64,000 bases of DNA, from the NCBI RefSeq assembly GCF_003344865.1, contig NZ_CP031165.1, forward strand, positions 2,485,910-2,549,909, in the 5' to 3' direction. A program made the translations under genes and the position numbers. Source of the stretch: Euzebya pacifica (GTDB lineage: Bacteria; Actinomycetota; Nitriliruptoria; Euzebyales; Euzebyaceae). Shown piece by piece: positions 1,935 through 6,904 of this stretch; positions within the stretch are counted from its first letter, which is position 1; every line of letters starts with the position of its first letter. The notes under the pieces are model-generated. The model was not told the DNA's origin and did not search any database. It saw only the letters and a program-made list of their open reading frames with translations.

Positions 1935-3143
1935 CTAGCTGCTGGGCAGCAGCACGGAGTCGATCAGGTGCACGGTCGCGTTGGCGGTCTGGACGTCGGG
2001 GACGACGATCTCGGCCTGGCCAGCGACGGTCGTGCCGTCGATGGTGATGGTCTCGCCGGTGAAGGTCTCGTAGTCACCGGACAGGTCAGCGGAGGCGATG
2101 CGCTCGCCGACGATGACGTGCAGGCCGAGGACCTGGGTCAGCAGACCGGACGGGTCGTCCAGCGCAGCCTGCAGGGTGGCCTCGTCCAGGGCGGCGAAGG
2201 CGCAGTCGGTGGGAGCGAAGACCGTGAGGGCCTCAGCGGAGTTCAGGGTGTCACCCAGGCCAGCCGCACCAACGGCGGTGACCAGGGTGGTCAGGACCGG
2301 GTTGGAGGAAGCGGCGGTGGCGACGGGGTCGTCGGCCATGCCCTCGAGGGTGCCCTCGGACTGGCCACCCTGGACGGCGGCGACGATGGCGTCGGTGTCG
2401 CAGACGGTGGAGGAGTCCGCCGCAGCGGCGGCGTCGGTGCCCTCTTCGGTCATGGCCTCGTCGGTCATGGCCTCGTCACCAGCAGCGCCGGAGACGCTCG
2501 GCGGCACCAGGACGGTGTCGATGAGGTGCACGGTGGCGTTGGCGGTCTCGATGTCGGGGACGACGATCTCGGCCTGGCCAGCGACGGAGGTGCCGTCGAT
2601 GGTGATGGTCTCGCCGGTGAAGGTCTCGTAGTCACCGGACAGGTCAGCGGAGGCGATCTGCTCGCCAGCGATGACGTGGAAGCCGAGGACCTGGGTCAGC
2701 AGACCGGTCGGGTCGGCAAGGGCCGCCTCGAGGGTTGCCTGGTCGAAGTTGGCGAAGGCGCAGTCGGTGGGAGCGAAGACCGTGAGGGCCTCAGCGGAGT
2801 TGAGGGTGTCGACGAGGCCGGCCTCGGACACGGCGGTGACCAGGGTGGTCAGGACGGGGTTGGAGGAGGCGGCGGTGGCGACGGGGTCGTCGGCCATGCC
2901 GGCCAGCGTGCCCTCTTCGGCACCGCTCTCGACGGCGGTGACCAGGCCATCGGCGTCACAGATGGTGGAGGAGTCGGCCGCGGTGGCCTCCTCCGTCATC
3001 TCTTCGTCCATGGCGGCCTCGGTGGCCGTTTCGGAGGCGCCTGTGGCGGTCTCCTCTGAGGAGTCATCTGCTGCACAGGCTGCGGCGACCACGGCAAGGA
3101 CCATGACCAGGAGCAGCGTGCGGAGCTTGAGCATCGAACGCAT
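1935..3143 (-). CDS. Lipoprotein with two tandem fasciclin (FAS1) domains
   Basis: A 402-residue secreted lipoprotein. The start is the ATG of MRSMLKLRTLLLVM, preceded by AAAGG 9 nt upstream; a longer reading frame upstream has no signal peptide. The lipobox is VVAAAC (Cys about 20). An acidic Ser/Thr/Glu linker follows, then two FAS1 domains (~residues 55-205 and ~250-400). Each carries the FAS1 signatures LTVFAPTDCAFA, LLTQVLGFHV and NATVHLIDTVL. The two domains are nearly identical, with a 186-residue period. FAS1 domains mediate cell adhesion or matrix contacts. It lies 3' of the racemase operon on the same strand, with 160 nt between. No TANNNT hexamer is seen before the start, unlike many genes here, so an alternative sigma factor is possible. 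Confidence 0.92.
   Translation of the reverse strand: MRSMLKLRTLLLVMVLAVVAAACAADDSSEETATGASETATEAAMDEEMTEEATAADSSTICDADGLVTAVESGAEEGTLAGMADDPVATAASSNPVLTTLVTAVSEAGLVDTLNSAEALTVFAPTDCAFANFDQATLEAALADPTGLLTQVLGFHVIAGEQIASADLSGDYETFTGETITIDGTSVAGQAEIVVPDIETANATVHLIDTVLVPPSVSGAAGDEAMTDEAMTEEGTDAAAAADSSTVCDTDAIVAAVQGGQSEGTLEGMADDPVATAASSNPVLTTLVTAVGAAGLGDTLNSAEALTVFAPTDCAFAALDEATLQAALDDPSGLLTQVLGLHVIVGERIASADLSGDYETFTGETITIDGTTVAGQAEIVVPDVQTANATVHLIDSVLLPSS
1948..2978 (-). repeat. Internal duplication encoding the two FAS1 domains (558-bp period)
   Basis: Bases ~1948-2420 and ~2506-2978 are near-identical copies offset by 558 bp. Matching points include CGAT(C/G)AGGTGCACGG at 1961 and 2519, and CAGA(C/T)GGTGGAGGAG at 2401 and 2959. 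Long stretches match even at synonymous positions, which points to recent duplication or ongoing gene conversion. Confidence 0.85.
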
Positions 3144-3303
3144 GTTGCGTTGCCTTTCATCGGGTGGGGGCACAGCAGGGCTGGCCCGTTCGGGGATCTG
3201 GCGGCAGGCGGTGCGCAGCCGGAGGGGCGTTGCGCTGGCGGCGCCTGACACCACTGGTTCGGACGCGGTCCGAGGATGGATTGGTGACCCCGAGAAACTT
3301 TTC

Positions 3304-4380
3304 CTACGCCGGTAGGAGGGCCCGGCCCATGAACCGCCTGGCCACGAACGGCGAGGTCATCGCGCGGACGAGCGCGCCGTACCCCAACCCGAAGGACAGC
3401 TGGCTGCCCACCACCAGTGGATGGGCGGTGCGCACCAGGAGGTGGTCGCTGCTGCAGCCGATGACGGCCACGCCGTCGGGCGGGACCAGCCCCTCGGGAT
3501 CGATGTCCTGTCGACCGATGGCAAGGATCGACTGGGCGATGGGCCCGCAGTCCAACGGCGCCTCACCGGGACCGTTGGCGGTCTCGCCCCGGCGTCCCCA
3601 CGGCGCCGACGGCTTCATGCCCGACTCGATGACCTCTGCGACCAGCGTGAACGCGTCCTGGTGGAGTCCGGCGATCGGGCGTCGGTCCAAGGGGTCCCTG
3701 CCGAGCAGCAGGGCCTCACCCAGGCGCAGGTCGTTGACCCGTCCGACATCCGGCGTGTGCAGCGCCCAGGACAGGTTCGCGGAGTTGCCGCCCGACACGA
3801 CCTCCAGCGGATGGCCGAGGGTGGTCTCGCAGTCACCGACCAGCCGGTCCAGCACCGCCATGTTCACCTCGTCGGGCACCACCCCGTTGCGACAGGCGAG
3901 GTTGGCGCCGAGGCCGCGTACCTCCAGGTGCGGCAACGACATCGCGCAGGCCAGGACCGCGGGCAGGTCCTCGGGCATGATCCCCTCCCGCAGGTCACCG
4001 AGCTCCACCGCGAGGATCACCCCGTGATTCCGACCCGAACGACCTGCCGCCCTCGACAGGCAGGCAAGGATCACCGGTTCGGTGTTGAAGCTGGTGTCGG
4101 CCCACGCCACCACCCGAGCGGTCTCGCTGGCCATCGGGGTGCGCAGCTGGGTCGCCGGCGCGGCAACCCCGGCCCGTCGCATCGCCGCCAGCGTGGCAAC
4201 GCGGGAGTCGGCAAGCCCCCGGGCACCGCCGGCCAGCATCGCCTCGACGATCGGGATGCTCCCCCGAACGGCCTTAGTCACCGCCGTGACACCGATGCCG
4301 CGTCGCTCGAGGCGACTGACGAGCGAGGCGGTGTTGTCCTCGATGTGGGCCAGGTCGATCTCCAGCCGCGGGGCCCTCAC
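3304..4380 (-). CDS. Alanine/ornithine racemase-family PLP enzyme
   Basis: A 358-residue protein resembling the alanine racemase N-terminal TIM-barrel fold, of the alanine/ornithine racemase and YhfX-like group. Near the N-terminus, LEIDLAHIEDNT and VTAVTKAVRG contain the probable PLP-binding lysine (about residue 36). EVVSGGNSANLSWAL is the phosphate-cup loop, and LRLGEALLLGRDPLD is a family signature. It starts with GTG overlapping the stop of the DUF1611 reading frame (GTGA), so the two are translationally coupled. DUF1611 proteins act on N-acylated D-amino acids or dipeptides in characterised systems, so the pair probably handles D-amino acids; the substrate cannot be read from sequence. 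Confidence 0.8.
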   Translation of the reverse strand: MRAPRLEIDLAHIEDNTASLVSRLERRGIGVTAVTKAVRGSIPIVEAMLAGGARGLADSRVATLAAMRRAGVAAPATQLRTPMASETARVVAWADTSFNTEPVILACLSRAAGRSGRNHGVILAVELGDLREGIMPEDLPAVLACAMSLPHLEVRGLGANLACRNGVVPDEVNMAVLDRLVGDCETTLGHPLEVVSGGNSANLSWALHTPDVGRVNDLRLGEALLLGRDPLDRRPIAGLHQDAFTLVAEVIESGMKPSAPWGRRGETANGPGEAPLDCGPIAQSILAIGRQDIDPEGLVPPDGVAVIGCSSDHLLVRTAHPLVVGSQLSFGLGYGALVRAMTSPFVARRFMGRALLPA

Positions 4381-5488
4381 CCGGTCCCGGCCGGCACCAG
4401 CGGTCGAAGGGTCGGGAAGGCGGTGACGACCATGGTGACCAGGTCCTCCACCGGACGGGTCAGCGCATCGGTGACCGGGATCGACAGCCGACGTTGGAAG
4501 TCCACGATGGCGGCGCTGATCTCGTCGTCCGACAGGCGCTCGTGGTTGATCGTCATGCCGATCACGGTGGTGTCGGCGAACGCCTGGATCAGCGCGATCT
4601 CGCTTTCAGGGGTCGGCATGGCCACGTCGGGGAAGTCGCTGAGGACCGTCCGGCCCGGGGCGTGCTGGAGGATCACGCCGTCCGGACGGCTGCCGCGCAG
4701 CATCATCGTCGAGGGCCAGGGTGGCTCAGCGCACCCTGGCCCTCGACGATGATCACGTCGGGGGACGCGGACCGGAAGGCGTCGAGCACGACGCCCTCCA
4801 TCTCGCCGATGCCGAACTGCGCCGGGATTGCATCCAGCGCGATCCCGAAGCGGGCTCCCTGGATCAGGCCCGTCTGTCCGGTGCTGACCATGACCGCGTG
4901 GATGCCCGCGTCCCGGAGCGCGTCGACGAGGATCGTCGCGGTGGTCCGCTTGCCGATGGCGCCGTCGGTGCCGAGGACCGCGATCACCGGGCAGGTGACC
5001 TCCTCGATCCGGCCGGTGAACATGCGCAGGTCCTTCGTCGCCCGCGGCCGGCGGATGTCACGGATCTCCACCTCGTTGGCGATGGCGGCACCAGCGAACT
5101 CGGGGTCGTCGTTGAGGAACTCGTGCAGGCCGTTCACGAGGTCGAGTCCGGCGGCGATGGCCGCCAGCAGGACCGTGCGGCTGGCCGCGTCGAGCAGCCC
5201 GCTGGACGGCGCGACACCGATGATCATCGCGTCGGGTCGTGTGCCCGTCCGAGCCACCTCGAGGTCCAGGGCCTCCTGCAGCGAGGCGACGACGGGGATG
5301 CCGTTGGCGCGACCGTCCAGCAACGTGCCGGCGTCATGTCCTGCCTGCCCGCTGTCGATGACGCTCAGTACCTCGTAGGTCTCGCTGTGGCGCACGAGGC
5401 CGTTGGCGGTCTTGCCGTCGATCCCGCCGAAGTGGTGGTCGCAGTAGACGACGGCGGTGGGTCTGGGCAGGGGGATGGGCGTGGACAA
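4377..5488 (-). pseudogene. DUF1611 (DgcN-like) gene with a frameshift
   Basis: The reading frame from the TTG at 5488 (GAGGAG five nt upstream; protein begins with STPIPLPRPTAVVYCDHH) runs to a TGA at 4703-4705. The missing C-terminus continues in another frame from about 4704 to 4377 (MMLRGSRPDGVILQHAPG, then MPTPESEIALIQAF). Both parts are DUF1611, a P-loop family of ~340-370 residues that includes the D-glutamate N-acetyltransferase DgcN. The P-loop region GTDGAIGKRTTA and IVEGQGALSHP lie in the first part. A one-base loss near 4739-4744 would explain the break, giving about 371 codons if restored. The break falls inside a perfect inverted repeat (4702-4753), so sequencing or assembly error, a real mutation or recoding are all open. 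The following racemase gene overlaps by 4 nt. Confidence 0.8.
4702..4753. repeat. Perfect 22-bp inverted repeat at the DUF1611 frameshift
   Basis: The arms 4702-4723 and 4732-4753 are exact reverse complements, separated by the 8-nt loop GCTCAGCG. This is long for a coding region and coincides with the frameshift. It can fold into a very stable hairpin in DNA or RNA. Confidence 0.95.
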
Positions 5489-5638: not shown

Positions 5639-6790
5639 TCAGCCGGCGGGCAGCAGGACCCGGTCGATCAGGTGGACCGTGGCGTTGGCGGTCTGGATGT
5701 TCGGCACGACGATCCGGGCCTGGCCGTTGAGGGTCACCACGTTGTCCTCGACGGTGTAGGGCAGCGGTGGCCCGGCCACGGTCGGCAGCTCGCCGCCGCC
5801 GAGCTGGTCCAACGTCAGCCGTCCCTGCACGACGTGGAACTGCAGGATTCGTGCGAGCAGGCCCTGGGGGTCGGCCATCGCCGCCTGCAGGGTCGAGGGG
5901 TCGAGCATCGCGAACGCGCAGTCGGTGGGCGCGAACACCGTCAGGGCGTCGGCGCTGTTGAGCGTGTCCACGAGGTCGGCGCCCACGATCGCCTCGACCA
6001 GCGTGGTCAGCACCGGGTTGCTGGACGCGGCCACCGCAACGGGGTCGTCGGCCATGCCGACGATGGTGCCGTCAGCCGGGCCGGCGTTGATCGCCGCGGT
6101 CAGCGCAGCGGTGTCGCATGCGGCCGTCGAGTCGGGTGGGCCCGTCTCGACCGCCTCGACCTGCACGGGGCCCTGGACCCCGTCGGGCACGATGACGTGG
6201 TCGACGAGGTGGATCGTCGCGTTGGCCGTCTGGATGTCGGCCACCTGCACCGTCGCCTGTCCCGCGAGGACGATCCGGTCGCCCTCGCGGGTGTAGGGGA
6301 TCGTGCGGCCGGTGAAGGTCGTCAGCTCACCGCCGGTCAGCTCGGCGGACCCCAGCCGTTCGCCCGGCACGATGTGGGCACCCAGGATCTGCGTCAGCAG
6401 CCCGGCGGGGTCGGCCAGGGCCGCCTCCCGCAGCTCGGGGTCCAGCATCTCGAACGCGCAGTCGGTCGGCGCGAAGACCGTGACCGCCTCGGCGTTCTCC
6501 AGCGTGTCGGTCAGCTTCGCGGTGGCCGCGGCCGCCACGGCGCGGGACAGGACGGGGTTGGCCATGGCGGCCGTCATGACGGGCACCTCGGCCATGGCCT
6601 CGCGGCTGCCGTCCTCGTCAGCGAGGTCGATCGCCGACTCCACGCCTTCGGCGGTGCAGACCGTGGTGCTGTCCACGACCGCGGTCCCTGTGGGCTGCAA
6701 CGGCGCCTCGGGAGCCGACGAGCACGCCGCGAGGACCACCATCCCCACCAGGAGGAACAGTCGCAGACGCTGGTGGGGGCTGGGGGGCAT
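5639..6790 (-). CDS. Lipoprotein with two fasciclin (FAS1) domains
   Basis: A 383-residue lipoprotein. It starts MPPSPHQRLRLFLLVGMVV and has the lipobox VLAAC at about residue 22. Two FAS1 domains follow (~45-200 and ~230-380), each with LTVFAPTDCAFE/M, a hydrophobic LLTQILGAHIV-type helix and an NATIHLVDHVIVP-type ending. Its two domains have diverged, unlike those of the paralogue at 1935-3143. It lies between the molybdoenzyme (upstream, 114 nt) and the DUF1611 gene on the same strand. Fasciclin lipoproteins next to sulfite-oxidase-type enzymes recur in actinobacteria; in mycobacteria fasciclins are SigK targets. The ribosome site is weak. Confidence 0.9.
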   Translation of the reverse strand: MPPSPHQRLRLFLLVGMVVLAACSSAPEAPLQPTGTAVVDSTTVCTAEGVESAIDLADEDGSREAMAEVPVMTAAMANPVLSRAVAAAATAKLTDTLENAEAVTVFAPTDCAFEMLDPELREAALADPAGLLTQILGAHIVPGERLGSAELTGGELTTFTGRTIPYTREGDRIVLAGQATVQVADIQTANATIHLVDHVIVPDGVQGPVQVEAVETGPPDSTAACDTAALTAAINAGPADGTIVGMADDPVAVAASSNPVLTTLVEAIVGADLVDTLNSADALTVFAPTDCAFAMLDPSTLQAAMADPQGLLARILQFHVVQGRLTLDQLGGGELPTVAGPPLPYTVEDNVVTLNGQARIVVPNIQTANATVHLIDRVLLPAG

Positions 6791-6904
6791 GGGCGCTCGG
6801 AGGTCGGATGCTCCGTGGGGCCTACCGCGGAGGAGAGGGGAATGGTGGGCGTCCCGGCGCCGGGGCACAAGTCCGCAGCCCGGCCGCCGCGACGTCCCCT
6901 CGGA

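Follow-up and report, generated by a model that had tools for sequence, protein, structure and literature searches.

The DUF1611 locus and its neighbors

The window analyzed here, a 64,000-nucleotide stretch of the Euzebya pacifica genome, contains a DUF1611 gene that is split into two pieces on the reverse strand. The N-terminal piece (4703..5488, minus strand) encodes 261 amino acids, from a TTG start at 5488 that lines up with the GTG start of the same-genus ortholog (genome G002) to a TGA stop at 4705-4703, and comprises DUF1611_N plus the first half of DUF1611_C (Pfam positions 2-102). The C-terminal piece (4377..4706, minus strand) lies in another frame, encodes 109 amino acids from an ATG at 4706-4704, and covers DUF1611_C positions 109-201. 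Pfam matches across the two pieces scored 89.1, 116.9, and 79.8 bits, with both DUF1611_N and DUF1611_C above their gathering scores. The last residues of the first open reading frame are ...VEGQGALSHPGPRR*, closing at 4703, and from 4706 the other frame continues as MMLRGSRPDGVILQ, the stop of the one and the ATG of the other overlapping as ATGA.

A profile search of both contigs of the 6.37-Mb genome (5.80 and 0.57 Mb) returned these two gene pieces as the only PF07755 matches; the assembly thus holds no intact DUF1611 copy. Plasmid records, when searched, yielded only a distant relative as a DUF1611 match, and among publications naming DUF1611 none was on the family itself, judging by titles and abstracts.

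Directly downstream lies an intact alanine-racemase-like gene (PF01168; 3304..4380, minus strand), whose GTG start overlaps the DUF1611 stop; this gene normally begins at the DUF1611 stop by way of such a GTGA overlap. Two genes that resemble FAS1-domain genes by eye, each with internally duplicated halves, are found at 1935-3254 and 5639-6868, and they bracket the DUF1611-racemase pair in G002 as well, the gene order common to both genomes being FAS1-like gene, DUF1611, racemase, FAS1-like gene. Across many phyla, an ornithine-racemase-like PF01168 gene accompanied DUF1611 in 79 of the 85 loci examined, and the two form a conserved, apparently uncharacterized pair. Both genes of the pair scored below the NCBIfam thresholds set for DgcN and Orr. 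The racemase gene is intact, with a dN/dS of 0.21 versus G002, which means either that it has a role of its own or that too little time has elapsed since its partner broke.

A perfect inverted repeat at the break

The break falls within an inverted repeat at 4702-4753, and the earlier note was right on its geometry: two arms of 22 nt each (4702-4723 and 4732-4753) are 100% complementary, with 22 of 22 positions paired, around a loop of 8 nt, and the reading frame switches inside one arm. In the direction of the gene, the upstream arm (4732..4753, minus strand) codes for IIVEGQG with its coding intact, the loop (4724..4731, minus strand) is the same as in G002, and the downstream arm (4702..4723, minus strand) carries the frameshift, with the stop at 4705-4703. 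In 1.66 Mb of sampled genome sequence (loops of up to 20 nt), only two perfect inverted repeats had 22-bp arms and the next longest had 16, and a third-order Markov copy of the sampled sequence contained none longer than 14 bp. The other 22-bp repeat (loop of 3 nt; L175:11358-11404, contig C1, ~2.09 Mb) lies where no frame codes convincingly, and no obvious T run follows it.

The DNA strand of the repeat stretch had a z score of -8.1 against dinucleotide shuffles, versus shuffle-like values of -1.0, -0.4, and +0.9 for the corresponding stretch in three relatives, and the RNA hairpin is very stable at -52.7 kcal/mol. A strong hairpin at a frame change invites the reading that programmed frameshifting there yields a full-length protein, a reading to which we give almost no credence: the frame change lies inside the hairpin and not upstream of it, no classic slippery heptamer was seen, and both hairpin and break are absent from all relatives compared, which are all in frame. 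The suggestion of hairpin-promoted recoding, made in the earlier note, accordingly finds no support. A shifted product would also be two residues short in a segment whose spacing is fixed, as set out below.

Intact relatives and a change confined to one arm

The homologs compared came from 80 loci spanning many phyla and from relatives of the same class, all read in six frames. The sole same-genus ortholog found, that of G002, is 88% identical in DNA and has an intact frame of 372 amino acids, close to the ~371 residues anticipated for the unbroken protein; its N-terminal part is 91% identical in amino acids to the first piece. Some 85 further relatives are likewise unbroken at the repeat site, and neither G002 nor the other close relatives carry the perfect repeat, in agreement with the expectation that relatives would have an intact frame and lack the repeat. 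The spacing SHP[A/T][Y/F]..S...LRG was free of gaps in 86 of 86 intact homologs, with D D replacing A Y in one of them.

This fixed spacing sets the net change relative to G002 at -7 nt, not -1; blastn writes it as +1 and -8, plus further substitutions. The loss of a single base proposed earlier was therefore wrong, and the reconstruction that went with it, GGCTACTCG -> GGCCCTCG, is unsupported by a net change of this size. Measured against the spacing of the 86 intact homologs, the restored reading SHPGYSTMMLRG falls two residues short. Nowhere else along the 1.1 kb of gene aligned with G002 is there an indel.

The two arms have diverged very unequally. Relative to G002, the upstream arm shows three substitutions and no indel, about the background of 12%; two are synonymous and the third is a Val-to-Ile change present in many homologs. 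The downstream arm differs in 12 alignment columns, indels (+1 and -8 nt) counted, and it mirrors the upstream arm exactly, including all three bases at which the upstream arm departs from G002. Twelve differences against three, together with the mirrored bases, indicate that the upstream arm likely served as template for the downstream arm, which was rewritten as the reverse complement of its partner. In G002, 15 of the 22 repeat pairs are kept when aligned with gaps of 1 and 8. Other repeats of this genome (arms of at least 12 nt in 88.6 kb aligned with G002) were nearly all shared; none had gaps, and at most two pairs were lost.

A linear alignment can of course be expressed as one insertion, one deletion, and a few substitutions, and the palindrome might then be an accident of independent mutations. 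When +1 and -8 changes and 12% substitutions were placed at random on the downstream side, however, none of 60,000 simulated combinations reached 22 bp and the longest repeat was 16 bp; with the 14-bp maximum of the Markov copy, this indicates that the repeat did not arise by chance, and we regard accidental origin as extremely improbable. A single template switch behind both the repeat and the frameshift, as the earlier note had conjectured, is instead well supported by the comparative sequence evidence: the changes lie in one arm and mirror the other, and the repeat is longer than any that the random trials produced.

Prior palindromy at the site appears to have been slight. Since the nearest relative is 12% diverged, we infer the immediate ancestor, and on a proxy for it the longest perfect stem was 5 bp; palindromy of the arms in G002 was no greater than in synonymous shuffles. 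With G002 palindromy this weak, the switch would have been primed by short complementarity and not by a strong existing palindrome. The motif was also considered as a specially palindromic hotspot, an idea rejected because its palindromy does not exceed synonymous-codon expectation. A general four-point template-switch scan of the difference clusters between the two genomes was tried and dropped as too permissive, true and reversed-decoy scores being alike; the direct repeat-by-repeat comparison of the two genomes was used in its place.

Proposed mechanism, age, and consequence of the break

As the assembly reads, the DUF1611 gene was probably inactivated recently by one fold-back template switch that made the downstream arm mirror the upstream arm. 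In the proposed sequence of events, the nascent coding strand would be extended through the upstream arm and the loop as far as the bases CACCC, and would then fold back on itself, most likely with CACCC pairing to GGGTG and the 8-nt loop between them. It would copy a further 17 bases or more off its own upstream arm before returning to the proper template. The downstream arm would come out as the exact reverse complement, 7 nt shorter on balance, and would bring in a premature stop. With replication starting near dnaA and the locus (2.49 of 5.80 Mb) in the first replichore, the nascent coding strand would be the lagging strand, an assignment for which the GC skew was too weak to offer confirmation. 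With the C-terminal part out of frame, the product is most likely a nonfunctional fragment of 261 residues, which would be inactive for want of about a third of the protein at its C-terminal end and of the conserved segment after SHP.

The separated C-terminal part shows no decay relative to G002, either in dN/dS or in branch counts. The first part had a dN/dS of 0.17; the second had 0.27 when read in its own frame, versus 1.7-2.1 in the two remaining frames; amino acid changes in the second part, polarized by near outgroups, numbered 2 on the branch of this genome and 7 on that of G002. Such absence of decay implies a recent break or, with lower probability, an artefact of assembly that has no counterpart in the cell.

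Fold-back copying is also possible in vitro, and an in vitro copy made at a weak hairpin during library preparation could have entered the consensus while the gene in the cell stayed intact, which would explain the undecayed C-terminal half directly. We consider this unlikely. The genome was assembled into two contigs, the first of which begins with dnaA and dnaN (by reading of translations), and a consensus error would require the identical multibase change in most reads. No comparable change was seen in the other repeats of the 88.6 kb, and the DUF1611 break was the only clean mid-gene frameshift among ~60 credible genes syntenic with G002 (of 70 candidate ORFs surveyed, 56 were intact over at least 93% of their length, and the others appear to be spurious or to reflect end effects).

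Constraint on the C-terminal part bears on another reading as well, in which the gene works in two pieces: with ATG 4706 overlapping the TGA at 4705-4703, translation may stop and restart, and chains of 261 and 109 residues may reassemble while translation of the racemase is kept. The ATGA overlap fits this reading, as do the lack of ATG codons at the corresponding place in G002 and the GTGA overlap by which the downstream racemase normally starts at the DUF1611 stop. If true, it would mean that an enzyme made as one chain became, through a single mutation, a two-piece enzyme with coupled translation, its racemase partner still being translated. It is nonetheless very unlikely, given that no Shine-Dalgarno-like sequence was seen just upstream of ATG 4706, that this ATG sits at the foot of the -52.7 kcal/mol RNA hairpin, and that the break wipes out the conserved segment following SHP; recency accounts equally well for the low dN/dS.

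Comparison with known systems

Template-switch mutations are, to our knowledge, known mainly from reporters or as small substitutions. The mechanism proposed for the DUF1611 gene is already known, and its understanding is unchanged by this case; the instance is new and unusually readable, a legible natural bacterial example in which the template arm, the recipient arm, the likely priming bases, and the outcome can all be read. The case also carries two cautions: reading a template-switch event as ordinary indels inflates one mutation into several, and the breakage of a gene in a conserved operon may date from very recent times.

As a protein, the broken gene belongs with the DUF1611/DgcN family (PF17396 and PF07755; PDB 2g0t, 2obn, 7xrj), both of whose Pfam domains are present, and the full-length G002 ortholog matches those solved structures. 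DgcN is described as a key gene of an irreversible racemization pathway for acidic D-amino acids (PMC12363236). Unlike DgcN, the gene described here is broken and is paired with an ornithine-racemase-like gene, and even the intact G002 ortholog scored 158 bits against the equivalog cut-off of 480 bits for the NCBIfam DgcN N-acetyltransferase (NF041892). By analogy, a role of the DUF1611-racemase pair in D-amino-acid turnover is plausible.

For the mutation itself, the closest parallel in bacteria is quasipalindrome correction, a mechanism established in E. coli: at imperfect inverted repeats the polymerase switches to copying the nascent strand, and the repeats come out perfect; documented cases include the E. 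coli thyA hotspot and the lacZ QP5/QP6 reporters, along with Ripley's T4 rIIB and yeast CYC1 (PMC7202029). The event proposed for DUF1611 resembles these cases in yielding a perfect repeat, in changing several bases of one arm at once, and in the gain or loss of a frameshift; it differs in being natural and seen between species, in its weak prior palindromy, and in a copied tract of at least 17 nt. Homogenization of inverted-repeat arms has also been described in S. cerevisiae genes, e.g., REG2, where a 5-bp ancestral arm became a 16-bp perfect arm (PMC8604942). There too, clusters of changes in one arm match the other arm and were found by comparing relatives. Unlike the reported S. cerevisiae cases, which are multinucleotide substitutions, the DUF1611 case also involves 7 nt lost on balance, which breaks the frame.
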